Shown: piece by piece, positions 1,117 through 20,749 of the stretch
Layout: each line of letters begins with the position of its first letter
Position numbering within the stretch: position 1 is the stretch's first letter
Virus record (IMG/VR): IMGVR_UViG_3300034198_014047
Coordinates: 1-29,642 of that record
Length of the DNA: 29,642 nt
Origin: a virus
Strand: one strand, 5' to 3'
Position numbers and translations under genes: made by a program
The notes under the pieces: model-generated
The model's database searches: none
Seen by the model: only the letters and a program-made list of their open reading frames with translations
Told to the model about the DNA's origin: nothing

Positions 1117-1807
1117 TTGTGATTTCCTCTTGGTTGACTTCGTCGTAAGTAACAATTTTAACAACCTCTTTAATAATTGGCTGTAATATCATTTGAGCCA
1201 TTAATAGGAATTTACTGTCCTTAACATAGAAATAGTTTCCCCAGAAATGTCTGTACTCTCGTCTAAAGCTATTGAGCAAGTCTTCAGAGATATGGAACTC
1301 GTCTATGTTTCTCTTAACAAGATTAACAAAGTTTTTCTTGCCATCTGGACTGAGTTTTGATATAGAGCCCTGTAAAGCAATTTTATAACGACAACCGTGT
1401 GTGAGTTGTTTCTTAACTTCTACACGACGATTAGTCTCCATAAACATAAGTGCTTCCTCACTTACTGGTTCCCAAAATTCTGCAACAACAGAATTCTTTT
1501 TGGAAATTTTCGTTAGATCATCAAGGATAGCACGATCTTTGAAGAATAGACTAAGTCCTCTACCTTCAGTTCTTCTACGCATCTGACTTTTATCATACTT
1601 GCCGAGGAGTTGAATTAAACCAATTACTTCATTTGGATATTCTCGTGCTGCTCTGTTTGCTGCTCCCCAATCTGTAAGATCTCCCTTTTTAATTTTAGGA
1701 ATATCTTTTACATTGAAGTAATTAGCAGCATAACCCCATTCATTATGTATAACCGCCTTATACGGAAAAGAGCGGTAAAAGAGTCTGTCCGTTGTTCTGA
1801 TTCTCAT
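1109..1807 (-). CDS. Hypothetical protein (232 aa), downstream of clpA
   Basis: A 232-residue soluble protein that is rich in Arg, Lys and aromatic residues. It has no membrane segment and no catalytic motif that I can identify. The N-terminus (MRIRTTDRLFYRSFPYKAVI) and the basic YDKSQMRRRTEGRG stretch near residues 71-84 would suit nucleic-acid or protein binding, which is inference only. AGAGGT lies five bases upstream of the ATG, so the start is well supported. The gene overlaps the end of the ClpA reading frame by 50 bases, long for this window, and the 95-residue gene by 8 bases. Confidence 0.65.
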   Translation of the reverse strand: MRIRTTDRLFYRSFPYKAVIHNEWGYAANYFNVKDIPKIKKGDLTDWGAANRAAREYPNEVIGLIQLLGKYDKSQMRRRTEGRGLSLFFKDRAILDDLTKISKKNSVVAEFWEPVSEEALMFMETNRRVEVKKQLTHGCRYKIALQGSISKLSPDGKKNFVNLVKRNIDEFHISEDLLNSFRREYRHFWGNYFYVKDSKFLLMAQMILQPIIKEVVKIVTYDEVNQEEITNV

Positions 1808-3035
1808 GTGTACCTCTATAGTTTAGTTTAACATCTTTTCCTTCACAGTCAACCTCAACTATGCCACCAGACTTAAGAGATCCAAATAACATCTCACGAC
1901 TCATTGGCTTCTTAATTTCTTGGTCAATGATTCGTGCTAACGGACGAGCGCCCATCTTTGGATTAAAGCCCTTCTTAATAAGCAGAGCCATTCCACTTTC
2001 ACTAACTTCAACCTTAACATTCTTTTCACTAACAAGAGCATTAAGATCCCTAATGAACTTCTTAACAATATATTCCATACTCTCTTTGCCTAATTTATTG
2101 AACTTGATAACCCCGTCCAATCTATTACGAAACTCTGGGGCGAAGAAACTAGTCATCGCTTCTTCGCCGTCGTTGTATCGGTCTTCAGTTGAGAAGCCAA
2201 TAGTCTGACGTTCGGCATCCTTAGCACCAAGATTGGAAGTCATAATTAAAATAACATTACGACAATCAGCAACCTTACCATTTGATCCAGTGACTTGTCC
2301 ATTGTCCATTAACTGGAGTAGAATGTTACTAACATCTGGATGAGCTTTTTCAATTTCGTCAAGAAGTAGAACACAATGTGGATGTTCCTGAATCTTAGTG
2401 ATTAACATACCTGCGTTCTCTTCGTATCCAACGTAGCCAGGAGGTGATCCAATCAATTTAGCAACAGAATGCTTTTCCTGATACTCACTCATATCAAAGC
2501 GGATCAAGTTTACAGCAAGATTATCTGCTAATTGCTTTGCTGTTTCAGTCTTACCACAACCAGTTGGACCAACAAACAAGAAACTACCAATTGGCTTAGT
2601 AGGATCTTTAAGTCCAGCACGAGCAATAAAGATCTTGTCAAGCACATCGTCAATTGCTTTGTCTTGTCCAAATACTTTATGCTTCATATTAGATTCTAAA
2701 TTACTAAGTCCTTCGCTTTCTGTTTCAGCAACAGCCTCGACAGGAAGTTTAACCATCTTGCTTAACTCAAATTCAATACTCTTCTTTGTAACAATTCGTT
2801 CTTTAGAAGCATCGAGTTTAAATCTGGAACAAGCAAGGTCGATAAGATCAATGGCCTTATCTGGTAATTTCTTATCTGTGAGATACTTAACGGAAAGTTT
2901 AACAGCATCTTCGATTGCTTGATCTGTAATCTCTGCCTTGTGGAATTTTTCGTAATACTTCTTAATACCTTTAAGGATATCTATAGCAACTTCTGCTGTT
3001 GGCTCGTCAACAGTAACTCTTTGGAATCGACGCAT
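1758..3035 (-). CDS. clpA: ClpA-like unfoldase, C-terminal part (D1 end and D2), frame-disrupted
   Basis: The second part of a ClpA-type AAA+ unfoldase, which feeds substrates into the ClpP protease. It continues D1 from the paired arginines of MRRFQRV (the arginine-finger region). It then carries a full D2 module: Walker A GPTGCGKT at residues 156-163, Walker B VLLLDEIEK at 222-230, sensor-1 MTSN at 265-268 and the GARPLAR sensor-2 region near 362-368. ClpB-style coiled-coil insertion is absent, so ClpA fits better than ClpB. An IGF tripeptide at 279-281 corresponds to the ClpP-docking loop of ClpA (IGL) and ClpX (IGF). In frame, 24 further ClpA-like residues (from GAIKVIAS to DRAL) extend upstream to base 3107, where they meet the N-terminal part. 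The ATG at 3035 overlaps that part's TGA as TGATG. Confidence 0.9.
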   Translation of the reverse strand: MRRFQRVTVDEPTAEVAIDILKGIKKYYEKFHKAEITDQAIEDAVKLSVKYLTDKKLPDKAIDLIDLACSRFKLDASKERIVTKKSIEFELSKMVKLPVEAVAETESEGLSNLESNMKHKVFGQDKAIDDVLDKIFIARAGLKDPTKPIGSFLFVGPTGCGKTETAKQLADNLAVNLIRFDMSEYQEKHSVAKLIGSPPGYVGYEENAGMLITKIQEHPHCVLLLDEIEKAHPDVSNILLQLMDNGQVTGSNGKVADCRNVILIMTSNLGAKDAERQTIGFSTEDRYNDGEEAMTSFFAPEFRNRLDGVIKFNKLGKESMEYIVKKFIRDLNALVSEKNVKVEVSESGMALLIKKGFNPKMGARPLARIIDQEIKKPMSREMLFGSLKSGGIVEVDCEGKDVKLNYRGTHENQNNGQTLLPLFSV

Positions 3036-4024
3036 CAGCGCACGATCCTTTTCAAAGTGCTTACGATATTCTTCCCAAGTAGTAGAAGCAATAACTTTAA
3101 TAGCACCTTACTAAGAGCAGGCTTTAACATATTAGCCATGTCGTTTGGATTGTTTGAACTAGAACCGGCACCGCTCATCATGTGTGCCTCATCGATAAAG
3201 ATAATTGCCTTACCCTTACGTTCAATAGCCTTAAGGACTGCTTTAAGTCTTTCTTCAAACTCACCTCGATACTTTGATCCAGCAAGCATAGCACCGATAT
3301 CTAAATTGTAGATTGTATTATCTTTAATAAATTCTGGAACTTCACCATTAACGATTTCAAAAGCAAGTCCTTCTGCGATAGCAGTCTTACCAACACCTGG
3401 GTCACCAACAAGTATTACGTTTGCTTTATTACGACGTCCAAGAGCAAGAATAATACTTTCAATCTCAGTTTCACGACCGATAACAGGATCTATTTTATTC
3501 TTCTGAACCTGTTGATTCATATTTGCCGTATATTGTGCTAGAAGTTTATCAATACCCCCTGAAGGTATAGCTTCTTCGTCAACATGTATAGTTTCTTCAT
3601 CTACGTATTCTATAAATTTGTCTTTAGTAAATCCTGCTTTGTTAAGATAATATACTGAATAACTTTTCTTTTCAGCAAGAATACTTAAAAAGAGATCGTT
3701 TAGTTCTATCTTTTGTCTTCCGTTAAAAAGAACTTGAGTAAAAGCTCTATTAAGGCATCTTTCAACAGTTTGAGTTTTAGCTGGCTTTACTTTTCTTCCA
3801 TCTATTACAATATCATTCATATTTAATTTAATGAAATGCTCGAGGTTAACACGAACATAGTCTAGATCGCCTTGATAACTATTCAAAAAGTTAACAAATT
3901 TTTCATCAGTAACAATAGCAAGAACTAAATGTTCTAGAGTAAGATATTCGTGTTGATGTTCTATTGCAATAGCAACGGCTTTATCATAAATGACTTGTAG
4001 TTCTTCACTAGGTTCTAAAATCAT
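3035..4024 (-). CDS. clpA: ClpA-like unfoldase, N-terminal part (N domain and D1), frame-disrupted
   Basis: The first part of the ClpA-like unfoldase. Residues 1-145 match the ClpA N domain, which binds adaptors and substrates (HEYLTLEHLVLAI at 25-37). D1 follows, with Walker A GDPGVGKT at 207-214 and Walker B FIDEAH at 276-281. ClpA identity ends at Lys306; the next 23 residues (VLLKLLLLLLGK and on) are an out-of-frame tail. Re-reading from base 3107 one frame back restores GAIKVIASTTWEEYRK and joins the second part. The joined product would be 306 + 24 + 425 = 755 residues, close to E. coli ClpA (758). The ATG overlaps the deformylase stop as ATGA, so the two genes are translationally coupled. 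A missing G in a GGG run at 3106-3107 is the simplest explanation. Confidence 0.9.
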   Translation of the reverse strand: MILEPSEELQVIYDKAVAIAIEHQHEYLTLEHLVLAIVTDEKFVNFLNSYQGDLDYVRVNLEHFIKLNMNDIVIDGRKVKPAKTQTVERCLNRAFTQVLFNGRQKIELNDLFLSILAEKKSYSVYYLNKAGFTKDKFIEYVDEETIHVDEEAIPSGGIDKLLAQYTANMNQQVQKNKIDPVIGRETEIESIILALGRRNKANVILVGDPGVGKTAIAEGLAFEIVNGEVPEFIKDNTIYNLDIGAMLAGSKYRGEFEERLKAVLKAIERKGKAIIFIDEAHMMSGAGSSSNNPNDMANMLKPALSKVLLKLLLLLLGKNIVSTLKRIVR

Positions 4025-4515
4025 CTCTTACCCTTTCGCATCTTTTTAATAGCCATTTCTAATTTAACTTTACCTACTCTATCAGTGTAACATACACCGT
4101 AAAGATGATCAAACTCATGTTGAAAGCATTTTGCCATATAGCCTTCAACCTTAATTTCATTCCACTTCTGATCAACATCTTGATATGCAGCAATAATCCA
4201 TTTAGGTCTTTCAACATTAAGCCATAACCCAGGAAAGCTCAAACAACCCTCTTTATCAAGGATTTTTTCTTCACTAACTTTAAGAATCATAGGATTAATA
4301 AAAATTGTAGGCTCAATAAAGCCCTCAATAAATTTAGAACCCATAACAAATATTTGATATGGGATGTTTACTTGATTAGCAGCTAATCCGATACCATGAT
4401 TCTTTAACATAGTATCGATCATTAGTTGTTCTAATTCTTTAGGATCGGTATCAAATTCAAATTTTGCTACAGGCATGTGTAGCAATGGGTAAGGTTCTTT
4501 AAAAATTTCTAACAT
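4021..4515 (-). CDS. def: Peptide deformylase
   Basis: Removes the N-terminal formyl group from nascent proteins. All three family motifs are present: GIGLAANQ at residues 41-48, EGCLS at 89-93 and QHEFDH at 132-137. Cys91, His133 and His137 should bind the metal, with Glu134 as the catalytic residue. At 164 residues it is near bacterial length and keeps a basic C-terminal tail (KKMRKGKR). Phage deformylases are known from marine cyanophages, where they are thought to help process host photosystem proteins. Here the partner is different: the gene overlaps clpA by four bases and follows the DnaJ-like gene by about 45 bases. I am confident of the enzyme; its role in infection is inference. Confidence 0.95.
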   Translation of the reverse strand: MLEIFKEPYPLLHMPVAKFEFDTDPKELEQLMIDTMLKNHGIGLAANQVNIPYQIFVMGSKFIEGFIEPTIFINPMILKVSEEKILDKEGCLSFPGLWLNVERPKWIIAAYQDVDQKWNEIKVEGYMAKCFQHEFDHLYGVCYTDRVGKVKLEMAIKKMRKGKR

Positions 4516-4559: not shown

Positions 4560-5429
4560 TTATTTTCCTCTAATTTGACTTGCCATTTGTTTAACTAACG
4601 AAACTAAATTAGGATCTGTTATTGCAGGAGTATCTACAATAATTTGAATTAATAAATCTCCTCTAACATTATTAAATTTAATACTAGGAAATCCTAATCC
4701 TTTACATGCATATTTTTGACCATTTTGTGTTCCGGGTCTTATAGTTATTTCTACATCATTATCGTCTATATTTTTGATTGTTTTTTTACATCCAAGCATT
4801 GCGTCAAAAATATCTATATTAACTTTAGAAATTAAGCTCATATCATCTCTATAAAAATCCTTGTCACGATCAATTTCTATATTGATTATAAGATCGCCTC
4901 GAGGAAGGTCTATTATAGAATCGTCACCCATTCCCCCCATTTTCATCTGTTGTCCAGCAGCAATTCCTGCAGGAATAGTTATCTCTGCGGTTTGTTGTTT
5001 TCCGCTAGGCAAAGGATAATTAATAGTCATAGTTTTACCTAAGTAACTATCTTTTAGACTTATTTTTACTTTTATTTGTAAGTCACTGTTTTTTGGTCTT
5101 GCAGCTCTGCTATTTTGAAAACCAAATCCAAACTGATGAAAAATGTCTTCAAAAGGATGTCCAAAAGGATCTCCACCTTGGAAAGGATGTCCGCTACGGA
5201 ATTCATTAAAGCCTCCGCCAAACGGATTGCCACGTTGTCCACCACCGTGATCATAAAATGCTTTCTTATCAGGATCGCTTAGTGTTTCGTACGCTTCTGT
5301 AATAGTTTGAAACTTCTTTTGATCACCACCGCGATCTGGGTGATGTTTCATCGCTAGTTTGCGATATGCTGATTTGATTTCTTCTGGTGACGCAGATTTA
5401 CCTACGCCTAGTGTATCGTAATGACTCAT
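4560..5429 (-). CDS. DnaJ-like co-chaperone, type II (CbpA-like)
   Basis: A Hsp40-type partner that would stimulate the host DnaK ATPase. Residues 1-62 form a J domain, with the essential HPD at 30-32 and the typical AYRKLAMKHHPD helix-loop context. A Gly/Phe-rich linker follows (about 63-110, repeated GGxPF and FGHPF units). Two beta-rich C-terminal substrate-binding regions come next, and LPRGDLIINIEID is a family-typical stretch. The CxxCxGxG zinc-finger repeats of DnaJ itself are absent, so it is closer to CbpA. At 289 residues the length fits that type. It lies upstream of def and clpA in one direction of transcription, making a protein-quality cassette. An AATAAATA motif sits about 30 bases before the ATG. 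Confidence 0.93.
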   Translation of the reverse strand: MSHYDTLGVGKSASPEEIKSAYRKLAMKHHPDRGGDQKKFQTITEAYETLSDPDKKAFYDHGGGQRGNPFGGGFNEFRSGHPFQGGDPFGHPFEDIFHQFGFGFQNSRAARPKNSDLQIKVKISLKDSYLGKTMTINYPLPSGKQQTAEITIPAGIAAGQQMKMGGMGDDSIIDLPRGDLIINIEIDRDKDFYRDDMSLISKVNIDIFDAMLGCKKTIKNIDDNDVEITIRPGTQNGQKYACKGLGFPSIKFNNVRGDLLIQIIVDTPAITDPNLVSLVKQMASQIRGK

Positions 5430-5459: not shown

Positions 5460-5467
5460 TATTTATT
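5460..5467 (-). promoter_or_regulatory. Possible late-promoter octamer AATAAATA before the dnaJ-like gene
   Basis: The minus strand reads AAAATAAATATCTCC, with the octamer 30 bases upstream of the ATG at 5429. It overlaps the end of the upstream gene. It differs by one base from GATAAATA and sits slightly farther away than the stronger copies, so it is less certain. Confidence 0.35.
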
Positions 5468-6194
5468 TTAGGAGGTCGAAGACCATTACTGTATTTTCGT
5501 TCTCAAAAACAAAGTGATCTCCATATTTGGTAATATTATAATTACCGAAATACTTTGTCAACCACATTGTTTCACTCATCGAACCTTCGTCGACACGAAT
5601 TTTTCCTGCAAGATTATTTAGAATATCTGTTCTTGTACCATATTCTAACATACGCATCTTAATAGGATTAGCAAAAGGACGCTTAAATGTAATTATATTT
5701 TCTTCTGCTGTAAGATAATCAAATCTGCTTCTACGAAAGAAGTGACGCATTTCGCTTTCAAAAATTTCTTCCATTTGTGCTTGATAATCTTCTGATGAAC
5801 TTGGAATGTTTCCTATTTCATGTAAAGGTTTACTATGATAATCTTTATAATATCTAAATTTCCAATCTTCACAACCGGTAAGTTCACTAAGACCGTACAT
5901 CATTTCGCTAATTTGACGACCTATCTTACGACTACGTTCAATCTCAACAAATACTTTATAACGACCGTTCTCGTCTTCACCTTGACTCATGTCTGCGTCT
6001 AAAACAAAATCGTATCCCTTTTCAACAAAATCAACAAAATCTAAAGATGCTTGATGACCAGTAACTTCAAATGCAAGAACTACAATATCTGAATCTTCTC
6101 CCATTTTACTTTTATAGGAGTCAACTTCAAATACATTCTTAACGAGATCTTTTAAATCTTCTATTTTAAGACCTTCACATAGGTGATGTTGCAT
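5463..6194 (-). CDS. Hypothetical phage protein (243 aa)
   Basis: A 243-residue acidic soluble protein. Hydrophobic strands alternate with charged loops (DIVVLAFEVTG near 36-46, YKVFVEIERSRKIGRQI near 79-95, NTVMVFDLLK at the end). There is no signal peptide, transmembrane segment or recognisable catalytic motif. The FFRRSRFDYLTAEENIITFKRP region is basic and could contact nucleic acid, but that is a guess. It overlaps the 185-residue gene by 20 bases, which points to joint translation. I do not recognise either family; both look like phage-core unknowns rather than host genes. Confidence 0.65.
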   Translation of the reverse strand: MQHHLCEGLKIEDLKDLVKNVFEVDSYKSKMGEDSDIVVLAFEVTGHQASLDFVDFVEKGYDFVLDADMSQGEDENGRYKVFVEIERSRKIGRQISEMMYGLSELTGCEDWKFRYYKDYHSKPLHEIGNIPSSSEDYQAQMEEIFESEMRHFFRRSRFDYLTAEENIITFKRPFANPIKMRMLEYGTRTDILNNLAGKIRVDEGSMSETMWLTKYFGNYNITKYGDHFVFENENTVMVFDLLK

Positions 6195-6732
6195 TCATAT
6201 CTCCAGCAGTAGGTTGTTCGTTCTGTGGCAACTCGACAGATTCTTCGCCCATGTTTTGTTCAGTATCAATGTCAGCATAAAGACTTTCTAAATCTACAGA
6301 ATTTTCTTGTTTTCCCCTTATAGATCCTTTGAATATTTCTAACATTAAAGTCTTTGGCATTTTAATTGTAACAACCCAAATTGGATGTTCATCTATGATA
6401 CCTTTTTTGCTTTGTGGACGAAAATCACTAGGTTCGTCAATCTTACGTGGTTTTTTAAAAATGCTTTCCTCATAAGAAACCTTACAATTATAATCAAGTA
6501 GTCTCTTACCACCCATAGGATCAGGCATGTCTTTTTTAGGCCACATAAAGGAGCACTCTACCCAATGGCGACTGACTTTAGGTCCTTCTACAAGTTCGCC
6601 GTCCTCCCAGTTCTTAAAAACATAGAGATTTAGTTCATCAATAACTCTCTCAAAATCCTTTAGGACCCTGAGGCTTGTATTGCTGTCGTAGATAGTAGAA
6701 ATGTTCTTTATAACGTCTTTTTCGTCGGTCAT
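6175..6732 (-). CDS. Hypothetical phage protein (185 aa)
   Basis: A 185-residue protein with a folded first part of about 140 residues. It includes the conserved-looking SRHWVECSFMWPKKDMPDP and EHPIWVVTIKMPKTLMLEIF stretches. The tail is acidic and probably disordered (ESLYADIDTEQNMGEESVEL and on, ending in Pro, Thr and Asn). No membrane segment or known motif is visible. A GATAAATA motif lies 24 bases upstream of the ATG, so it probably opens a transcription unit that includes the 243-residue gene and perhaps the dnaJ-def-clpA group. Function unknown. Confidence 0.65.
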   Translation of the reverse strand: MTDEKDVIKNISTIYDSNTSLRVLKDFERVIDELNLYVFKNWEDGELVEGPKVSRHWVECSFMWPKKDMPDPMGGKRLLDYNCKVSYEESIFKKPRKIDEPSDFRPQSKKGIIDEHPIWVVTIKMPKTLMLEIFKGSIRGKQENSVDLESLYADIDTEQNMGEESVELPQNEQPTAGDMNATSPM

Positions 6733-8606: not shown

Positions 8607-10754
8607 TTAGTGTTCACGTAAAGACTTTGGTGCTTCAAACCTTGGCCCAAACTTTTTTTCCAAATCATTAGCAACTTGGATAAACTTATCTTTGCCAACA
8701 TAATCAACAAATGATATTGTTCCGCCAGTAAAGGGAGGAAATCCAAATCCAAAAATTGATCCAACATCTGCTTCACGCTGATCTGTTACAATACCTTCCT
8801 TCATTGTCCTAAGTGCTTCAAGTGATTGTGTAAATAGAAATCTATTTTTAAGTTCTTCTACATCCACAAGATCCGAAACAAGAATACCATACCTGTTATT
8901 CAATCCCGACCATAATGTCTTTTTACCATCTTCATGATAGTCATAGAATCCTTTACCATTCTTACGACCATAACGCCCATGTTCCTCTACCATATAATGT
9001 AGAAGATTTTCTTGTACAGGATTTACAGCATCTGGACCTAGATCCTTCTTAGTTGCTTGTAGTATCTTCCAACCTAAGTCTAATCCAACTTCGTCATTAA
9101 GTGCTAGAGGTCCAACAGGCATACCTGCCATCTTAGCAACATTCTCAATCATAGCAGGCGGAACACCTTCTGCTAACATAAGATGTCCTTCTAACACATA
9201 ATTTAGAACACAACGATTAGCATAGAAACCACGTGAATCATTTACAACAATTGGTGTCTTCTTAATAATACGAACAAAGTCAAGAGCAGTTGCTAGGGCT
9301 AATTCATCTGTTTCCTTGCCCTTAATAACTTCAACAAGCATCATCTTATCTACTGGAGAGAAGAAATGAATACCAATGAACTTACCTGGATCAGTTACAT
9401 TCTCGGCAAGTGATGTAATTGGAAGTGTAGAAGTATTAGAAGCAACAATAGTATCAAGTCCGACTACTTCTTGTACCTTTTTAAGAACTTCTTCCTTAAC
9501 AGCTCTATCCTCAAAGACCGCTTCAATAACAAGATCAACATCTCTTAAAGAATTGTAATGCATTGATTCTTCAATGCGATTAAGCAATGTATCTTTCTCT
9601 TCAGCAGTCATTTTGCCTCTAAATACTTGCTTAGATACTAACTTGTTGATAGTTTCCTTACCAGCCTGTACCTTTTCTAAGGTAGTATCAAGTAGAACAA
9701 CATCAAGACCGTTTTGTGCAGAAACATAAGCAATACCTGCACCCATAAGTCCAGCACCGATAACACCAATCTTCTTAATGTTTGTTTCAGGGAAGTTAGC
9801 AGGACGACGAGCACCCTTATCTAATTCGTTCTTTGAAAGGAATAGGGTTTTAATCATTGCCTCTGCTTCTTTAGATCGAAGTATATTAGCAAACAATCTA
9901 GACTCAATCTTTAATGCTAGGTTAAATGGAACCTGTAGTCCTTCGTAAACACCTGTAAGAATTGCTCTTGCCCCAGGATAGTTATTATAAGTTTCTTTTC
10001 TATAAAGAGCATTAGCAGCAGGCCACACCATCATACCTTTTGGTGAAAATACTTTGCCCGAAGGATTCTTAAAATCTTTCTTGTCCCAAGGAGCAATCGG
10101 ATCGCCAGAATTTTCAATCCACTGCTTTGCTCTTACAACAGGATCAATATCTGTACAAATCTCATGAACAAGGTTCATCTTAAGGGCTTTAGTAGCATCA
10201 ACTGGATTGCCTTTTAACAAGAATTGTAATGCTTGATCAGTTTCCATTAACCTTGATACTCTAGTTGTACCACCAGCACCTGGAAACAGCCCAACCTTAA
10301 CTTCTGGCAAGCCAACTTTAGTTCTCTTATCAGCAACCATGATACGATAATGACATGCTAGAGCAAGTTCAAATGATCCACCAAGACAAATACCATGTAT
10401 TGCTGCAACAAATGGTTTACCACAAGTCTCTATTCTTCTATAAATTCTTGAGAGTCTACTTGAATCGTCGAAGAACCAAATATTTGCTGCTTCTTCTCCT
10501 TGTTCAGCAACGGCTTTGTCATACTGCCTTTTGCTTTCTTCTAACAAAGATAAGTCTGCTCCTCCCGAGAAATCTTTCTTTTTTGAAGCAATGACACATC
10601 CTTTAACAGTTTCGTCCTCTACAACATGGTAGATTAACTTATCTAGTTCGTCCATAACACTTTTATCAATAACATTCATAGAACGATCTGGCATATTCCA
10701 GTAAGCAATTAGAATATTCTTGTCGTATTCAATTTCAAAGTTTTTAAATGTCAT
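8607..10754 (-). CDS. fadJ: Bifunctional enoyl-CoA hydratase / 3-hydroxyacyl-CoA dehydrogenase (FadJ/FadB alpha-subunit type)
   Basis: Catalyses two middle steps of fatty-acid beta-oxidation: hydration of trans-2-enoyl-CoA, then NAD-dependent oxidation to 3-ketoacyl-CoA. The N-terminal hydratase (about 10-200) has the oxyanion-hole region HGICLGG at 120-126 and both expected acids, Glu129 (GGSFE) and Glu151 (GLPEV). The dehydrogenase (about 327-605) has the NAD-binding GAGLMG at 333-338 and the catalytic-type His463 in GIHFFSP. A C-terminal repeat (about 635-715) contains FGFGFPPFTGG. The 715-residue length is normal for FadJ/FadB and every motif is intact, so it should be active. Thiolase lies two bases upstream and gp44 36 bases downstream. 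Sequence style suggests capture from an alphaproteobacterium (inference). Confidence 0.96.
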   Translation of the reverse strand: MTFKNFEIEYDKNILIAYWNMPDRSMNVIDKSVMDELDKLIYHVVEDETVKGCVIASKKKDFSGGADLSLLEESKRQYDKAVAEQGEEAANIWFFDDSSRLSRIYRRIETCGKPFVAAIHGICLGGSFELALACHYRIMVADKRTKVGLPEVKVGLFPGAGGTTRVSRLMETDQALQFLLKGNPVDATKALKMNLVHEICTDIDPVVRAKQWIENSGDPIAPWDKKDFKNPSGKVFSPKGMMVWPAANALYRKETYNNYPGARAILTGVYEGLQVPFNLALKIESRLFANILRSKEAEAMIKTLFLSKNELDKGARRPANFPETNIKKIGVIGAGLMGAGIAYVSAQNGLDVVLLDTTLEKVQAGKETINKLVSKQVFRGKMTAEEKDTLLNRIEESMHYNSLRDVDLVIEAVFEDRAVKEEVLKKVQEVVGLDTIVASNTSTLPITSLAENVTDPGKFIGIHFFSPVDKMMLVEVIKGKETDELALATALDFVRIIKKTPIVVNDSRGFYANRCVLNYVLEGHLMLAEGVPPAMIENVAKMAGMPVGPLALNDEVGLDLGWKILQATKKDLGPDAVNPVQENLLHYMVEEHGRYGRKNGKGFYDYHEDGKKTLWSGLNNRYGILVSDLVDVEELKNRFLFTQSLEALRTMKEGIVTDQREADVGSIFGFGFPPFTGGTISFVDYVGKDKFIQVANDLEKKFGPRFEAPKSLREH

Positions 10755-10756
10755 TG

Positions 10757-11965
10757 TTACACCCGTTCAATAATTGTAGCAGTTCCCATACCGGCACCAA
10801 TACACAATGTAACTAGTGCAGTTTGTTTATTTGTTCTTTCAAGTTCGTCAACAGCATGACTAATAAGCATAGCACCTGTAGCACCAAGTGGATGTCCCAT
10901 AGCAATAGCCCCGCCATTTGGATTTACCTTAGCAGGATCTAAGTTAAATGCTTGTATGTATCTTAGAACAACTGAAGCAAATGCTTCGTTAACTTCAAAC
11001 AAGTCGATATCTTCAATGGCTATTCCTGTTTGTTTTAATAATTTTTTAGTAACATCAACCGGACCAGTTAACATAATAGCAGGTTCTGATCCGATATTAG
11101 TAAAACCTAATATTCTTGCTCTAGGAGTAATTCCTAAACTCTTGCCTGCTTCTCTAGAACCAAGTAATACAGCAGCACTACCGTCAACAATACCCGAACT
11201 ATTACCAGCATGATGAACATAATTTAGTTTTTCAATCTCTGGATATCTTTGAATTGCTACTGCTTCAAAGCCAGCCATTTCTCCATACATCTTAAATGAC
11301 GGATTTAATCTTCCCATACCCTCAACTGTAGCATCTGGTCGCATATGTTCATCGCGATCAAGTATTGTTATGCCATTTAGATCTTTAACAGGAACAATGG
11401 ACTTATTAAATCTACCTTCACTCCATGCTAATGCGGCACGACGCTGTGATTCAACAGCATAAGCGTCAACATCGTTACGACTGAATCCATACTTTGTTGC
11501 TATTAAATCTCCTGAAACACCTTGTGGCATAAAATAAGATGGTATAGCAATCATAGGATCAACTGGCCAAGCCCCGCCACTAGCACCTAGACCAACACGC
11601 GACATTGATTCAACACCTCCGCCGATAGTTAGTTTATCTTGTCCTGACATAACTTTAGCGGCAGCAAAGTTAACAGCATCAAGACCTGACGCACAGAATC
11701 TATTAATCTGAACCCCAGGTACATCATTACCGAATCCAGAAGCAATAGTACCTGCTCTTGCTATATCGCCTCCTGCTTCTCCAACAGGATCAACACAACC
11801 AATAACACAATCTTCTACTTCAAAACCCTTAAGGTTATTTCTATCCTTAATACTTTCAAGAGAAGTAATTAATAATTTTAATGTTGACACCTCGTGGAGT
11901 GACCCATCGGGCTTACCACGTCCACGAGGTGTTCTTACACAATCATAAATGTAACAATCGGTCAC
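10757..11965 (-). CDS. fadI: Acetyl-CoA C-acyltransferase (3-ketoacyl-CoA thiolase)
   Basis: Splits 3-ketoacyl-CoA with CoA to yield acetyl-CoA and a shortened acyl-CoA; the reverse reaction condenses two acetyl-CoA. The nucleophile Cys91 (NRFCASG), NEAFA at 326-330, His358 in GGAIAMGHPLGATG and Cys388 in CIGAGMG are all present, so the enzyme looks complete at 402 residues. It begins with GTG; GGAG lies eight bases upstream, and the start overlaps the previous stop as GTGA. Only two bases separate its stop from the fadJ ATG, matching the thiolase-plus-alpha-subunit pairing of bacterial fad operons. It could be named acetoacetyl-CoA thiolase; the sequence alone does not settle chain-length preference. 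Confidence 0.95.
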   Translation of the reverse strand: MTDCYIYDCVRTPRGRGKPDGSLHEVSTLKLLITSLESIKDRNNLKGFEVEDCVIGCVDPVGEAGGDIARAGTIASGFGNDVPGVQINRFCASGLDAVNFAAAKVMSGQDKLTIGGGVESMSRVGLGASGGAWPVDPMIAIPSYFMPQGVSGDLIATKYGFSRNDVDAYAVESQRRAALAWSEGRFNKSIVPVKDLNGITILDRDEHMRPDATVEGMGRLNPSFKMYGEMAGFEAVAIQRYPEIEKLNYVHHAGNSSGIVDGSAAVLLGSREAGKSLGITPRARILGFTNIGSEPAIMLTGPVDVTKKLLKQTGIAIEDIDLFEVNEAFASVVLRYIQAFNLDPAKVNPNGGAIAMGHPLGATGAMLISHAVDELERTNKQTALVTLCIGAGMGTATIIERV

Positions 11966-12389: not shown

Positions 12390-12824
12390 TTAGAGATCGC
12401 CTTCCTTACGGTTCTCACTGTAGAAAGCATCAAAGTGTCCGCCTGGATACCTTGCTTCAAGTTTGCGAACATTCTCAGCGATAACTTCGTTAGGGTCGAG
12501 ACGCAATGCATTACAAGCATTGATCCAATACCACATAACATCGCCTAGTTCACGCTTCATGTGGAATAGTGTTTCTTCTGTAAGTGGCTTACCTTGGAAG
12601 AACATCTTCTTAGGAATCTCACAGAACTCGCCGCACTCTGCTGCCATACCAATAGCCGCAGTTAGTACTAAGGGAACATTGATATCAGGACCATGAACAC
12701 CGTCTCCGATATAATTTGCATCAACTTCGTCTAGTCGATTCATAAAGGTAGTAAGATCCTTACTTTCTTTACTTGTTACAGCTTCAACAAATTCTTTATA
12801 TTTGTTCAAATCAATGTTGCTCAT
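12390..12824 (-). CDS. mazG: MazG-like nucleoside triphosphate pyrophosphohydrolase
   Basis: Hydrolyses nucleoside triphosphates to monophosphates and pyrophosphate. The metal-binding helix motif is visible: Glu63 and Glu66 in AAECGEFCE, then Glu92 and Asp95 in RELGDVMWYW. ENVRKLEARYPGG at 117-129 is the usual family ending. At 144 residues it is a single-domain phage form, unlike the two-domain E. coli MazG. Marine phage MazG was proposed to lower ppGpp, though biochemical work on a cyanophage enzyme favoured dGTP and dCTP, so the role here is open. The start overlaps the acyl-ligase end by 14 bases. Confidence 0.92.
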   Translation of the reverse strand: MSNIDLNKYKEFVEAVTSKESKDLTTFMNRLDEVDANYIGDGVHGPDINVPLVLTAAIGMAAECGEFCEIPKKMFFQGKPLTEETLFHMKRELGDVMWYWINACNALRLDPNEVIAENVRKLEARYPGGHFDAFYSENRKEGDL

Positions 12825-14274
12825 TTTTTATCTGCCTTATGTAAGTTAATATTTTTTCACGATCAGGTTTTATACCAGTAACAAAATCTGACATATCTTC
12901 TATAAAAATTATGTCATTAAGCTCGATTTTATTATTATAATGTATCTTTACACTTTCTTTAATACCCTCAATGTGTTTCATAATTTGATCGTTATTTGTT
13001 ACAGCATACAGTCTATTATAAATTTCATCAACTAAAATGATAGCATCTTTATAATGAAATCCTGTTACATGTTGGAGGAAAATTCCCTGTATATCGTATA
13101 TGTTTATTTCTGTATCGAGTATTCTATATAACTTTTTTTTACCTGCAAAATCGTATCCGTTTCCCATATCTCTAAGAGAATCTTCTGTATTAATAGTAGT
13201 TCCATATGTTGGTATTGTTACATGGAGACTATTATCTATTATAGATATTTCATGAAATCCTTTAATAGGATATCCTAAAAAGTTAGGACTAAAATTTTCA
13301 ACATTTTTATCTACATAAGGTAAGAACAAAGGACCAGAAGTCTCACTGCATCCAAATATACTGATCACCTTTTTTATTTTTCCTTTTTTAACAAGATCAT
13401 ACCATTTTGGATTTATGAAAGTTAGAATATAAATTACTAGATCAGGACAACCTATTTCTGATCGATCAAAAGCATTTATCATATAATCGATACTAAAATC
13501 AAAAGGACATTGCATTTTAGTAATCCCTGCTTTTTGACAGAAAGAAACAAATCTATCCCAATTTTCTTCATCAAATAAAGTTAGACTAAAATCAGGAATA
13601 CTAAAATAATGCCATTTACATATACGTAAAGAAGGTAAAAAATAAATTCCTAAAGCAGATCCGTGATTAAAAGAAACTAAATGTAAAACTTTGTCTTCTT
13701 CTACGAACTCTAAAGGTTGCCAATTAAATGAACACAAGTCATAAAAGAATTCATGAGTATGTTTTACAATCTTTGGTTGTCCGGTACTGCCACTACTTGT
13801 GCAGAGTAAACATATATCTTTAGATTCTGGATATACTTTTTTAATTTTTTTGTTTGGCTTCTTAATAGGTTGAAAGGAATTTCCAATCCATATTAAATCT
13901 ATTACATGGCGTGAATTATGTGTGTAATAATCTTTTAATTCTGGGAACCATCTTATAGCTAATCTATCTAATATTAATATATCAAGTGGATAGAAGACAT
14001 TGAATTTAGAACTATTCATCTCCTTTTCATTTACTGGTTTTAAAAGAATTGTTAATTTAAGTCCTAATTCAAATGCAGCAAATATTGCAGCAACATAAGA
14101 TATATCAACAGTAGCAACAGCAAAGCCAATTTTATCTCCCGGCTTTGCATTATGCTCTAATAAAATATTTTTCCAATAATCGATAATAGAGAAGAAATAT
14201 TTTCTAGTAAAACCTTTATTTTTTACATAGAAATGTGCTTCTTCGTGTATCCAATTTCTAGAAATTACTTTCAT
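12811..14274 (-). CDS. AMP-forming acyl ligase (ANL superfamily), possible acyl-CoA synthetase
   Basis: An adenylate-forming enzyme. The phosphate-binding motif TSSGSTGQPK is at residues 159-168, and FGCSETSG at 307-314 matches motif A5. RDMGNGYDF at 368-376 corresponds loosely to the A7 Asp region. GIKPDREK at 467-474 resembles the motif around the catalytic C-terminal lysine. The family activates a carboxylate with ATP and often transfers it to CoA. At 487 residues it is slightly shorter than most acyl-CoA synthetases (about 500-560), and the sequence is quite divergent, so substrate and acceptor are unknown. The gene is AT-richer than the fad genes (14 of 60 bases G+C at 13921-13980 against 22 of 60 at 9301-9360). 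GroES ends two bases upstream. Linking it to beta-oxidation rests on proximity and chemistry. Confidence 0.85.
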   Translation of the reverse strand: MKVISRNWIHEEAHFYVKNKGFTRKYFFSIIDYWKNILLEHNAKPGDKIGFAVATVDISYVAAIFAAFELGLKLTILLKPVNEKEMNSSKFNVFYPLDILILDRLAIRWFPELKDYYTHNSRHVIDLIWIGNSFQPIKKPNKKIKKVYPESKDICLLCTSSGSTGQPKIVKHTHEFFYDLCSFNWQPLEFVEEDKVLHLVSFNHGSALGIYFLPSLRICKWHYFSIPDFSLTLFDEENWDRFVSFCQKAGITKMQCPFDFSIDYMINAFDRSEIGCPDLVIYILTFINPKWYDLVKKGKIKKVISIFGCSETSGPLFLPYVDKNVENFSPNFLGYPIKGFHEISIIDNSLHVTIPTYGTTINTEDSLRDMGNGYDFAGKKKLYRILDTEINIYDIQGIFLQHVTGFHYKDAIILVDEIYNRLYAVTNNDQIMKHIEGIKESVKIHYNNKIELNDIIFIEDMSDFVTGIKPDREKILTYIRQIKNEQH

Positions 14275-14276
14275 AA

Positions 14277-14612
14277 TTACTCAGATGCAGTATAAGCGTC
14301 AGATGGTTTTTCATTACTCAACATCATTATAGCAGATGGTTCTACTCTTCTAACAGTGGTTAATGACCCATCTTCATTTTCTAGATCAACTCCTCTAGTC
14401 CATCTGCCATGTTCTACGAGAACCCAATCTCCTATCTTTATATCTTCTTGTTTTGGACCAACAGCATAAACTTTACCCCATCTAGGTTTAATACCATGTT
14501 GTTTCCCGTCATCATTAACAATAATGATTCCGCTTTTTGTCTTCTGTTCTCCAAATTCCATATCCTGAACAATAATATGATCAAGAATCGGTTTGATCTT
14601 CCTTATGGTCAT
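14277..14612 (-). CDS. GroES-like co-chaperonin
   Basis: Works with the host GroEL to fold phage proteins, the job done by gp31 in T4. It has the GroES opening pattern KIKPILDHIIVQ at residues 5-16, a mobile-loop region around 20-35 (EQKTKSGIIIVND) and the barrel segment WGKVYAVGP at 45-53. At 111 residues it is a little longer than GroES (97), with an extra Ser/Ala-rich tail. AGAGGT lies five bases before the ATG. The start overlaps the upstream structural-type gene by 32 bases. Together with the DnaJ-like and ClpA-like genes it makes a third host-chaperone system targeted by this phage. Confidence 0.9.
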   Translation of the reverse strand: MTIRKIKPILDHIIVQDMEFGEQKTKSGIIIVNDDGKQHGIKPRWGKVYAVGPKQEDIKIGDWVLVEHGRWTRGVDLENEDGSLTTVRRVEPSAIMMLSNEKPSDAYTASE

Positions 14613-16366: not shown

Positions 16367-17034
16367 TATTGATATTGTCCTATGTAATCAATATATACAG
16401 TATTTCCACTATCGTATGTCCAAAACTCTACTAAAATTGGGTCAGCAACATGAGATGATTCTGTTTTTTGAATTGAATTTGAAGGAATAATAAATCCAGG
16501 TTGTCCACTTGTAGTTCCTGGAGGATTAGTACTGAGAATAATATCTTCAGGACAATCTCTTCCTTTTTTAATTGCAACAGCCCCATTTACAACAAAATTT
16601 ACAGTAACATCACTTGGGTTACTAGTTCCTTTGAATAGAAGCATTCTGATCTTTACATATTTTTCACCAAAATCGGTGAAGCCATCTATAGTAAATTGAA
16701 AACTTGTAGTAGTAGATCCTACCGGATTAACTGTGAATAATTGAAATGGACCGTTTACTATTTCTACTAATGTAGGAGATGATTGAACTGATCCACCAAT
16801 AAAAAGTTCTTCTGTATAAGAAGTTAAATTAACATTTGTGATTGTATTGTTATTAAAGTTATTTGAATCATCTAATCTGGCAGTATTAAGCTGAAGATCT
16901 TCAATTTCACTCTTTGCAGCTTCAAAATTATTTTTTACAACTGCGAAATTATCTCGAAATCCTTGACTATCGTTATCTCTTCCTGCTACAGGAAATGTTT
17001 CATCAATACTATTAAAATTTATATTACTAGCCAT
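16366..17034 (-). CDS. Virion appendage protein with shared N-terminal module (222 aa)
   Basis: Residues 1-50 (NFNSIDETFPVAGRDNDSQ, then GFRDNFAVVKNNFEAAKSEI) resemble the openings of the two fibre-type proteins further right, so they probably form a common attachment module. A short NTITNVNLT fibre-like turn follows. The C-terminal domain is beta-rich (about 75-222), with STTTSFQFTIDGFTDFGEKY and a closing VEFWTYDSGNTVYIDYIGQY, as in small receptor-binding or baseplate-peripheral domains. Its start overlaps the end of the 1240-residue gene by eight bases. A GATAAATA motif 29 bases upstream, inside that gene, may give it its own late promoter. Confidence 0.75.
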   Translation of the reverse strand: MASNINFNSIDETFPVAGRDNDSQGFRDNFAVVKNNFEAAKSEIEDLQLNTARLDDSNNFNNNTITNVNLTSYTEELFIGGSVQSSPTLVEIVNGPFQLFTVNPVGSTTTSFQFTIDGFTDFGEKYVKIRMLLFKGTSNPSDVTVNFVVNGAVAIKKGRDCPEDIILSTNPPGTTSGQPGFIIPSNSIQKTESSHVADPILVEFWTYDSGNTVYIDYIGQYQ

Positions 17035-20000
17035 TTATAATCTCTCTTGCTGCAAATGCGATGTATTTATCGCCAACTTCACCCTTGACCGAGTCAATTA
17101 TGACTCTATCTACAGTGAAATCTATTTTCTTAAAATCTATACCAAGATTCTTAATATTGTTAATAATTCTGTCTGCATATCCTGGTTTACAATAACATAG
17201 GAGTATACCCTTAGTAAACCCTTGTTCAACTCCGCTAAATGTTTGTGGAGTTCTCATCCATAAAGGCAAGAAGTTACGCTCGGTTTCCCCTAATTGTTGT
17301 ATATTACTTCTTATATTTTTTGTACTATTACCAAAAATGTTACTTTTGTTAATATCACTGACTTTTTGTCCGTCAAAATCTGCTGTTACAATCTTGTCTT
17401 GTTGCCAAATTCTAGACAAAACATCTTTATTAGATTCGGTTATATTATTGTCCGAAATATCACTGTCCCATAAATCTCTTTTAGATTGATTTACAGTAAT
17501 TGGGAAGTTGTTAAATCTAGTGTCTATTGTTTTTGGAATACTTCCTTTAGATGTTTCCATGTTATCTAAGACTTCGATATATACTGCTTCATAAACTACA
17601 TCGTTAGTTCCGGGAGTTTTTGCAATAGATTTTTTTACTCTACCAAATCTATAACGTTTTTTAGAGCTACGTCCTAAAGCCGCTGCATATTCGGGAGCTT
17701 CTTTCGTTTCTATTCCTGCATAAATTAACATCTTTAATTCAGTTTGAACACCAAATGATGGATCACTAGATCTATATATTTTGTCTAATTCGAATATATT
17801 AGGATTAGTAAAGAAATCGGTTAATTCTAATCTTTTAGAACTAGATAAGAATGGTTTTACAAAAATATTACTGTAAAGTAAATCATTAGGTGTTGTTACT
17901 TTAACTGTGAAGATTTTAGTTATTGCACTAAAATTAAATTGATCCTTAGCAAGGACTATGAATGTGTAATCTCTATCTACAGTAGTATCAAAACTATCAA
18001 ATGACGTTGTGTTATTATCAAATGTTGTAAGGCCTGGGGCATCTTCTGTTGCAAATTGATTTACTTTACCTTGAATCGTTCCATCGCTAAACAAAGTTAA
18101 TCCCGGTGGTAATCTTCCTCCGATAAGGGTATAATTCAAAACTGCATTTTGAATATTTGTTTCTGCGATTACCGCTAATTCGCTTATAAAATTAGCAGGT
18201 ATAGTTCCAAGATCGCCTGGAGTTACAAATTTAATTGTGCTATCAATCTCGCCTATAATATCTAATGTAAATGTTTTAGCCGAACTTGTAACAAAACTAA
18301 AAATAAATCTAGTTCCACTCGGTACATTAGATAATAAAGGGGTGTTTAATGTAACTGTTTTAGATGCAACATCAATGGCTGTTACAATTGTACCAGGTGT
18401 AATAAAATTACTGCCGTTTGGAGCAGTAACAAGACTGTCTTTTCTAAGATTAGCAACACTATCCAATCTTAAATTATAAGAACTGACTGTTGATATAGTG
18501 TTTGTAAATCTTTCTGTACCGTATGAAGGATTATCAGGATCATATCTAAGAGCTCTTACGGTAAACTTATATGTCTGAGTAACTGCTGGTTGATATGGAA
18601 CATCTCCGTAAATTTCTCCTGTTAATTGATCTAACTGCATATTAGGAGGAAGTCTACTAATAGTTCCGTCGTTATTTACAGGATCTAAAACATATCCTAA
18701 ATTACCTCTTAAAGTTGACGGATCATAAACATCAAGGTAAGTTGTTATATAATTATTTGCTCTTCTTTTACCTAAGTAAGAAGGAGTGAGCCAGAAAGGC
18801 TTACGTATCGGAGTAACGTCAGCAGTATAGAATCCTGTTCCTACTTCAACAACTGTGGTATCTGCTCGAAGAGAATCATCACCAACAACATAAATTCTAA
18901 ATCTTCTATCTGCAAAGAATAATCCGTCTGTAACTCTAACAATAAATTGATAGTACCTATTAAGTTTTCTAGGTGACCTTGTTAAATCACTAAAATCAAA
19001 TGTTTGATTATCAAAAAGAAAACTATCATATCCATTATATGGTCTGACTCCGTAGTCGTAAGCAAACTTATCATAAAGGTGCATATCATATGCACCGTTA
19101 ATATCCCCTTGGTCACTTTTTAGGATAGCCTCAGTGAACCCAGAAATAATTCCATCTGCAGAAAGTGTTAGTCCTGGAGGTAGTTCTCCTCCTCTCGGTG
19201 GAATATAATATGATAACTTTTGACCAGTAGATAAGTCTTGATCTATTGCACTAAGTTCATAATTTACATATTCACTGTCTAAAACAAAGAAATTTGTATG
19301 AACGTATGTAGATGTAAGTGTAACTCTTTGTCCTGCTGGTATATTTCCTATTAAAGGTTTATTCAATAAAACAGTTTTACTAGTAGTATTAATTGATAAT
19401 ATTTTTGTTGCAGAAGCAAAAGCAGCTGGGTACAGCAATGACGAAAGTTCACTATTTTTTAATACTTTATTAACAGAAGTAAATCTAAGAATAGATTCAC
19501 CGGGATTACCTGATAATGCTAATGTTCTTGTAAGTTCTTCTGTTCTTCTACCAGTTTCTCCTAATGGTAAATCTCCTTCTGGTGTTACCCATATTGGAGC
19601 ATCTGCACCTTCTATAGTAATTGAGTATGTTCTATCAGAAAGTCCTGATACATTCACAGCTCTTAGAACAAATCTAAAAGTTCTTAATTTATTAACCTCA
19701 AACGGAGTTCCTATGATAGTGTTTCCTTGAATTCTTAATCCGGGAGGTAACTGACCGGATATTACTTCAATTTTAATATCTCCAGGAAATTCTAAATTTC
19801 CATTAGGTAATAATGGTTCTTGATAATATGTTGGTCCGATTATATAAGGATATCTAGGTAGAGTTATATCGTCTGGATCAACGGTAACGAAATAAGCATA
19901 AATTCCTCCTGGATAATCTGGAGTTCTGCAGAACCTTCCGTTATGTTTGTCTAAATCTCCTAACCCTTCTTCATAAACAAAGTCTTCTATATAAGTTCCA

Positions 20001-20749
20001 TCGGGCAAAGATGCATTTGATCTTTGGACATCGGTTACTCTATAGCTGGTACGCATAACACGGATAGGACTATTAGGATTTGTTGGTTCACTATATGCAT
20101 AAGGTCCGTATATAGGGTTCCCGTCAAACGCATATCCTAGTATAGGACTGTGTCTTGTTGGATCTTTAACATAAAGTAATTTTGGATCAGTATGATAGAA
20201 AAATTTTCTATCAGAAAGAATTATTCCAGAACCATCTCCAAAGAAACTTGTTGGATTAGTACTGTCATCCTGATATGACCGTATAGGATAAAGAGCAGCA
20301 TTTTCTGTATAATTTCGTTCACCTATAGAAGCAACTATACCTGAGTTTGAACTTTTGAAGGGAACACCGTCTATTGTAACTCCAAAAAATCCATTAGTTG
20401 GTGTATTAGTTTGTTTTCTACTTACAACTGTAGTATTTTCTCCTAAAATAGTTCTCTGATCTCTAGGAATTTTAAAAACATAGTTTTGTGATCTAGGTGT
20501 ATATCTATTATATTGTGGAGGCTGACCTAACCAAGGAGTATTAGCTAATCCTGTGCTTTTAACCCAGAAGAAATTATCATCACTATAATTAGGTAGTAAA
20601 GTAGAATCTATATTATTCTCAAACTGAAGAGTTTCAACTGTGCTTCGGTCCTCATTATCAAATACTAAGATTTGTAAAGAGAGACTTCGACGTTCTTCAA
20701 ATGTACCTAAGTTACTATTTGACGGATATGTCCATTGTGGTATTGCCAT
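17027..20749 (-). CDS. Large fibre protein with YHYH domain and Ig-like repeats (1240 aa)
   Basis: A probable tail fibre or baseplate-attached adhesin. Residues about 185-310 match the YHYH domain: SPILGYAFDGNPIYGPY at 201-217 and CRTPDYPGGIYAYFVT at 274-289. At least four putative Ig (He_PIG-type) units follow, each marked by LPPGL or a variant and a short D/N-G-x-I-x-G turn: near bases 19735, 19180, 18640 and 18095. A second internal repeat, a KTVLLNKPLIGNIPAGQR-like unit, recurs as KTVTLNTPLLSNVPSGTR (about 19330-19390 and 18310-18370). The last 200 residues differ and may fold as an assembly or capping domain. No enzymatic motif is seen. The start is supported by a late-promoter motif 20 bases upstream. 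Confidence 0.85.
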   Translation of the reverse strand: MAIPQWTYPSNSNLGTFEERRSLSLQILVFDNEDRSTVETLQFENNIDSTLLPNYSDDNFFWVKSTGLANTPWLGQPPQYNRYTPRSQNYVFKIPRDQRTILGENTTVVSRKQTNTPTNGFFGVTIDGVPFKSSNSGIVASIGERNYTENAALYPIRSYQDDSTNPTSFFGDGSGIILSDRKFFYHTDPKLLYVKDPTRHSPILGYAFDGNPIYGPYAYSEPTNPNSPIRVMRTSYRVTDVQRSNASLPDGTYIEDFVYEEGLGDLDKHNGRFCRTPDYPGGIYAYFVTVDPDDITLPRYPYIIGPTYYQEPLLPNGNLEFPGDIKIEVISGQLPPGLRIQGNTIIGTPFEVNKLRTFRFVLRAVNVSGLSDRTYSITIEGADAPIWVTPEGDLPLGETGRRTEELTRTLALSGNPGESILRFTSVNKVLKNSELSSLLYPAAFASATKILSINTTSKTVLLNKPLIGNIPAGQRVTLTSTYVHTNFFVLDSEYVNYELSAIDQDLSTGQKLSYYIPPRGGELPPGLTLSADGIISGFTEAILKSDQGDINGAYDMHLYDKFAYDYGVRPYNGYDSFLFDNQTFDFSDLTRSPRKLNRYYQFIVRVTDGLFFADRRFRIYVVGDDSLRADTTVVEVGTGFYTADVTPIRKPFWLTPSYLGKRRANNYITTYLDVYDPSTLRGNLGYVLDPVNNDGTISRLPPNMQLDQLTGEIYGDVPYQPAVTQTYKFTVRALRYDPDNPSYGTERFTNTISTVSSYNLRLDSVANLRKDSLVTAPNGSNFITPGTIVTAIDVASKTVTLNTPLLSNVPSGTRFIFSFVTSSAKTFTLDIIGEIDSTIKFVTPGDLGTIPANFISELAVIAETNIQNAVLNYTLIGGRLPPGLTLFSDGTIQGKVNQFATEDAPGLTTFDNNTTSFDSFDTTVDRDYTFIVLAKDQFNFSAITKIFTVKVTTPNDLLYSNIFVKPFLSSSKRLELTDFFTNPNIFELDKIYRSSDPSFGVQTELKMLIYAGIETKEAPEYAAALGRSSKKRYRFGRVKKSIAKTPGTNDVVYEAVYIEVLDNMETSKGSIPKTIDTRFNNFPITVNQSKRDLWDSDISDNNITESNKDVLSRIWQQDKIVTADFDGQKVSDINKSNIFGNSTKNIRSNIQQLGETERNFLPLWMRTPQTFSGVEQGFTKGILLCYCKPGYADRIINNIKNLGIDFKKIDFTVDRVIIDSVKGEVGDKYIAFAAREIING
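17064..17071 (-). promoter_or_regulatory. Late-promoter-like octamer GATAAATA inside the fibre gene end
   Basis: The minus strand reads GGCGATAAATACATCGC, 29 bases before the ATG at 17034. It lies in coding sequence, so chance is possible, but the C-GATAAATAC context equals that at the two fibre-gene promoters further right. Confidence 0.4.

Follow-up and report, generated by a model that had tools for sequence, protein, structure and literature searches.

Clp proteins have been described in several phages. The Agrobacterium phage Atu_ph07 has been reported to encode ClpA, ClpP, ClpS, ClpX and ClpB (PMC6102473), and the Sinorhizobium jumbo phage AP-J-162 several Clp proteins together with GroES, Hsp20, DnaJ and a tmRNA (PMC11242549). 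ClpA is also common in the Moraphages, large aquatic phages of Bacteroidota in which DnaK and DnaJ are present (PMC12619734), and phage tmRNAs are known from mycobacteriophages and from Bacillus phage G (PMC4131195). An overview of jumbo phages states that ClpP is found in some groups and that others 'instead' encode ClpS, which likely feeds the host ClpAP (PMC7824862). We found no publication that ties these parts together, most subscription journals being outside the literature searched.

Here, we describe a clpA gene in a record of 29,642 bases from a giant bacterial virus (hereafter the window), which is a fragment of a larger genome, and propose that its product is probably the unfoldase ring of a protease encoded by the phage itself. 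Since the presence of ClpA, ClpP and ClpS in one phage has already been reported for Atu_ph07, the window ClpA adds a member. The ClpA proteins of Atu_ph07, Phosso and AP-J-162 belong to the same family as that of the window; a DnaJ gene lies next to clpA in Atu_ph07, and Phosso, which infects Sinorhizobium, has exactly the gene order of the window, dnaJ-def-clpA. However, the window ClpA is less than 50% identical to those of Atu_ph07 and Phosso over the C-terminal half, and in contrast to the Atu_ph07 group, dnaK adjoins clpS in relatives of the window, with no ClpX found in either of the relatives G001 and G006. Enterobacterial jumbo phages of the RaK2/121Q/GAP32 type have ClpA of the same family, and every genome tested among them encodes ClpP and a ClpS-like protein. 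The likeness to the E. coli ClpAPS system extends to the domain order, the motifs, the IGL/IGF loop and Glu-23 and Glu-28 of ClpA, and, in the relatives of the window, to the ClpP catalytic triad and the ClpS residues, but the window ClpA is 44% identical to E. coli ClpA, and clpA, clpP and clpS lie scattered across the phage genome. While the Moraphages have Bacteroidota hosts, the tmRNA and a thiolase gene in the lineage studied here point to Alphaproteobacteria.

A ClpA-type protein encoded in two parts

The clpA gene lies on the minus strand of the window. Its first part (3035-4024, minus strand; 329 residues) encodes the N domain and the Walker A and Walker B motifs of D1 and runs out of frame after about residue 306, and its second part (1758-3035, minus strand; 425 residues) encodes the end of D1, the lid, D2 and the D2-small domain. 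When the two parts were joined across the frameshift (1758-4024, minus strand), the protein had 755 residues with an N domain, D1 and D2, exactly as the original prediction had described, and Pfam assigned Clp_N and AAA to the first half and AAA_lid_9, AAA_2 and ClpB_D2-small to the second. Both halves matched phrog_4871 (ATP-dependent protease) of PHROGs with E values of 2e-71 and 6e-167, TIGR02639 (ClpA) was the top NCBIfam model for each half, and the top PDB sequence matches of an intact ClpA from a relative were E. coli ClpA structures. The matches to NCBIfam, phrog_4871 and the PDB thus place the identity of the split gene as ClpA above chance, and the sequence match to solved ClpA settles the fold. 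The intact relative's protein scored 872 bits against TIGR02639 and 696 bits against ClpB; since the NCBIfam equivalog cut-off for cellular ClpA is 993 bits, the gene product is a phage ClpA-type protein and not a cellular ClpA equivalog under the NCBI rule.

Alignment of the joined protein to E. coli ClpA showed that both pairs of Walker A and Walker B motifs and the arginine fingers are intact, as are the pore loops KYR in D1 and GYVG in D2. In the N domain, the glutamates at the ClpS-contact positions (Glu-23 and Glu-28) are kept, and the N domain is predicted to bind ClpS at these positions.

The tripeptide IGF (2193-2201, minus strand), which had been predicted at about residue 610 opposite the docking loop of E. 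coli ClpA, indeed occupies residues 609-611 of the joined protein and aligns with the IGL docking loop of E. coli ClpA at residues 617-619. It is invariant in all 80 relatives, including the close ones in which its loss would have spoken against the prediction, and the residues that flank it vary. Among the ClpA proteins of 38 of these relatives that were aligned together, Ile-609, Gly-610 and Phe-611 are each invariant columns. An AlphaFold model of a relative's ClpA had a moderate pLDDT of 78, with the docking loop as a low-confidence coil between two helices. Judged from sequence, these results support the view of the gene product as a ClpA-type unfoldase with a putative ClpP-docking loop.

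ClpP and ClpS in the relatives of the window phage

No clpP gene lies in the window, as had been noted (CLP_protease is absent among its genes), and no clpS was found among the open reading frames of its 29.6 kb. The search for both genes was extended to relatives, and both were found. The nearest relative, contig G001 (128,772 bases), has a ClpA that is 93% identical to the window ClpA and shares a collinear stretch of about 27 kb with the window. It encodes ClpP at 61,471-62,016 (E value 3e-80), with the Ser-His-Asp triad intact and a score of 305 bits against PRK00277 of NCBIfam (cut-off 249), and ClpS at 68,809-69,042 (E value 6e-28), both at positions outside the part of G001 that corresponds to the window. 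PHROGs labels this ClpP as a head maturation protease; we rejected that assignment, as the protein is over the cut-off of PRK00277 and below that of the head-maturation model. A second, shorter ClpP-family protein of 195 residues (L100:16004-16591, minus strand), in which Ser, His and Asp are retained, is also encoded in G001.

Forty-one IMG/VR contigs that carry this ClpA were searched, with a total of 3.74 Mb (roughly 8-11 genome equivalents). They have ClpP on 12 and ClpS on eight, close to the number expected from one copy per genome; on three ClpA-carrying fragments of 139-161 kb (G017, G021 and G024), neither was found. Fourteen isolates of the Atu_ph07, Phosso, SCTP-2, PA5oct, XaC1 and RaK2/GAP32/121Q kinds were also tested. 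ClpP was present in all 14 with E values of 1.4e-40 or better, and so was a ClpS-like protein, over the cut-off in 13 and at 5e-4 in XaC1. Vibrio phage qdvp001 (a partial record) and LR756508, both more distant carriers of ClpA, gave weak ClpP-like matches and no ClpS. When the records with ClpS were compared with the list of those with ClpA (Vibrio phage 2.275.O being searched directly), 30 of the 31 phage records that have a ClpS detectable from that of G001 also held this ClpA, the exception being a 4.9-kb fragment.

We then compared the interfaces between the three proteins at positions which we take to be the ClpP cleft and the ClpS contacts. In lineages with the IGF loop, ClpP shares 48-65% identity with the E. 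coli protein and the N-degron residues of ClpS are mostly canonical. For the kin of the window that were tested, ClpP is 53-65% identical to the E. coli protein with the Ser-His-Asp triad kept, ClpS has the residues ND(D/E)-TPM-H-E-K including Glu-79 and Lys-84, and ClpA keeps Glu-23 and Glu-28. The original prediction had suggested that the N domain may accept different adaptors from host ClpA. With Glu-23 and Glu-28 kept and a canonical ClpS encoded in relatives, the idea finds no support in this lineage.

Unlike the window lineage, the RaK2/121Q/GAP32-type phages have a drifted loop and ClpP cleft and a ClpS-like protein of about 185 residues with an altered pocket. The loop in the enterobacterial phages reads LGM, VGM, MGM, IGV, IGM or MNM; ClpP is 33-36% identical to E. 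coli ClpP, with cleft positions changed and the triad intact; residue 84 of ClpS is Phe or Tyr; and residues 23 and 28 of ClpA are mostly Thr/Ser and Asp. Overall identity of ClpA to the E. coli protein is nevertheless similar in both groups (about 39-46%). Among the conserved columns of ClpA, those of the loop rank in the least-kept 16-18% (25% for the glycine), so that drift is not unique to them, and the RaK2-type drift represents in essence a single clade. In the enterobacterial phages, the loop of ClpA, the cleft of ClpP and the contacts between ClpS and the N domain drift together, as would be expected if the phage parts fit one another. The long ClpS-like proteins, which occur in enterobacterial and XaC1-type jumbo phages (L166-L175) and have a long N-terminal extension and altered N-degron pocket residues, are possibly adaptors with other substrates.

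These comparisons bear on the original proposal that the phage ClpA captures host ClpP and redirects host proteolysis. A canonical loop would fit bacterial ClpP, the IGF is invariant, and cross-docking is plausible with relatives' ClpP being as similar to the E. coli protein as it is. However, the proposal drew on clpP being absent from a fragment of 29.6 kb, and it does not hold for relatives, as G001 and all 14 isolates encode their own ClpP. Furthermore, the loop of the enterobacterial phages departs from I-G-F/L in step with the phage ClpP. Host ClpP is nearly constant in sequence among enterobacteria, and such a drift would therefore be hard to keep if the loop docked on host ClpP. We consider capture of host ClpP as the main role of this protein unlikely, although docking on host ClpP may occur as a side activity.

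Gene neighbourhood, frameshift and host

Upstream of clpA in the same cluster are def, encoding peptide deformylase (4021-4515, minus strand), and dnaJ, encoding a J-domain co-chaperone (4560-5429, minus strand); upstream of dnaJ are genes for two virion structural proteins, phrog_13138 (5463-6194, minus strand) and phrog_12928 (6175-6732, minus strand). All 59 relatives with enough sequence have dnaJ upstream of clpA, and 35 of them have def between the two. Thus, dnaJ-(def)-clpA is a conserved cluster beside virion genes. A GroES-like co-chaperonin or head morphogenesis protein is encoded at 14277-14612 (minus strand), with homologues in G001, G006 and G018. The genes clpS, hsp20 and dnaK lie side by side on the same strand in G001 (L100:8791-11618, minus strand), and dnaK adjoins clpS in G006 and G032 too, making three relatives. 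Genes for heme oxygenase and a ferredoxin-dependent bilin reductase (L100:7561-8794, minus strand) also adjoin clpS in G001.

A role as chaperone or remodeller has been proposed for jumbo-phage ClpA (PMC7824862), and the protein could accordingly serve virion assembly with little proteolysis. Virion structural genes lie beside clpA both in the window and in RaK2-type phages, and the clpA of PA5oct adjoins genes for proteins noted ESI-MS/MS in its record; no publication on the timing of PA5oct expression was found. Against this role, ClpP and ClpS travel with ClpA, and the ClpP-docking loop is unchanged throughout this lineage. ClpB, a pure remodeller, has no docking loop. It is therefore improbable that ClpA acts here chiefly as a remodeller, and a ClpA that works with the phage ClpP is the reading we prefer.

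The frameshift that splits clpA is a shift of one base at 3100-3114 (minus strand), near 3107. In each of the 80 IMG/VR relatives checked, ClpA is encoded by a single open reading frame of 715-765 residues. Because all 80 are intact, the frameshift is private to the window. Rather than being characteristic of the family, it is either a very recent lesion or an error of assembly or sequencing. A programmed frameshift was rejected on the same grounds, and no slippery heptamer was seen at the site. A chimeric assembly was rejected as well, as the identity to G001 is mosaic, without a sharp change at about 3107. The gene is broken as sequenced, but the view of it as a decaying passenger in this phage is very hard to reconcile with three results. 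It is intact in all 80 relatives; dN/dS against the nearest relative is 0.10 for the part that precedes the shift and 0.03 for the part that follows; and no other indel in the first 8.5 kb compared with that relative puts a coding sequence out of frame.

A fadB/fadJ-like multifunctional enzyme (715 residues) and an acetyl-CoA C-acetyltransferase (402 residues) are encoded at 8607-11965 (minus strand) and are annotated by homology as genes of fatty-acid beta-oxidation or acetoacetyl-CoA metabolism; both are under purifying selection. The same pair, with 78% DNA identity, occurs in G001 at the contig end, a different place from that in the window, and none of the 33 other ClpA-carrying phage records searched had a fadB match over the cut-off. 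Near this pair is a gene for an AMP-binding (acyl-CoA ligase-like) enzyme (12811-14274, minus strand), the G001 homologue of which is 56% identical. A protein of 1240 residues (17027-20749, minus strand) has a YHYH domain in Pfam and a putative Ig domain, and matches families of phage baseplate wedge proteins and of virion structural proteins.

G001 also has a permuted tmRNA of the alphaproteobacterial type (123 bits; L100:17836-18239, equal to G001:77886-78248, minus strand), the tag of which is ANDNFVASEIALAA. A tmRNA over the gathering score was found in eight of 31 records. tmRNAs are also present in G006, G011, G018, G023, G026, G032 and phage Phosso, and the tags of G006, G018, G023 and G032 have ALAA or AMAA as their last residues. 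SmpB was absent from all 18 records searched, so the phage tmRNA would need the SmpB of the host. Leucyl/phenylalanyl transferase, which makes N-degrons, was found in none of 31 genomes searched. The phage thiolase is closest to those of Methylocystis and other Rhizobiales, with up to 77% identity. Based on this kinship, the type of the tmRNA and the Sinorhizobium host of a phage with the same gene order, the host is likely alphaproteobacterial.

A predicted phage ClpAP(S) protease

As ClpS, ClpA and ClpP occur together in these genomes and drift jointly at their contacts, the phage probably brings the whole protease, and we consider it probable that the product of the window gene forms the unfoldase ring of a ClpAP(S) protease encoded by the phage. 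The IGF loops of ClpA hexamers would insert into the clefts of the ClpP ring of the same phage, with clpP, and likewise clpS, presumably encoded elsewhere in the genome, outside the window. The phage ClpS would bind the ClpA N domain and deliver substrates. This ClpAP(S) would work within a phage proteostasis set of DnaJ, peptide deformylase and GroES, joined in close relatives by DnaK and Hsp20. The protease may remove or remodel proteins in the course of infection, probably at a late stage and beside virion assembly. As candidate substrates we consider N-degron proteins delivered by ClpS, misfolded virion proteins, and proteins to which the phage tmRNA has added an ssrA tag.

A more tentative extension, which is possible but which we regard as rather doubtful, is a phage tag-and-destroy pathway. 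Proteins from stalled ribosomes, marked by the phage tmRNA with an ssrA tag that ends in ALAA, would be degraded by the phage ClpAP without ClpX, and ClpS would switch ClpA to N-degrons. Together with DnaK, DnaJ, Hsp20, GroES and peptide deformylase, these parts would form a self-contained viral proteostasis system.

The genomes compared here disagree with the overview in which phage ClpS likely feeds the host ClpAP (PMC7824862), as the three proteins are found together in these genomes and change in step at their contact residues. The phages provide a series of diverged docking interfaces in which the co-evolution of an AAA+ unfoldase and its peptidase may be studied, and in which it may be asked which ClpP a phage ClpA prefers.
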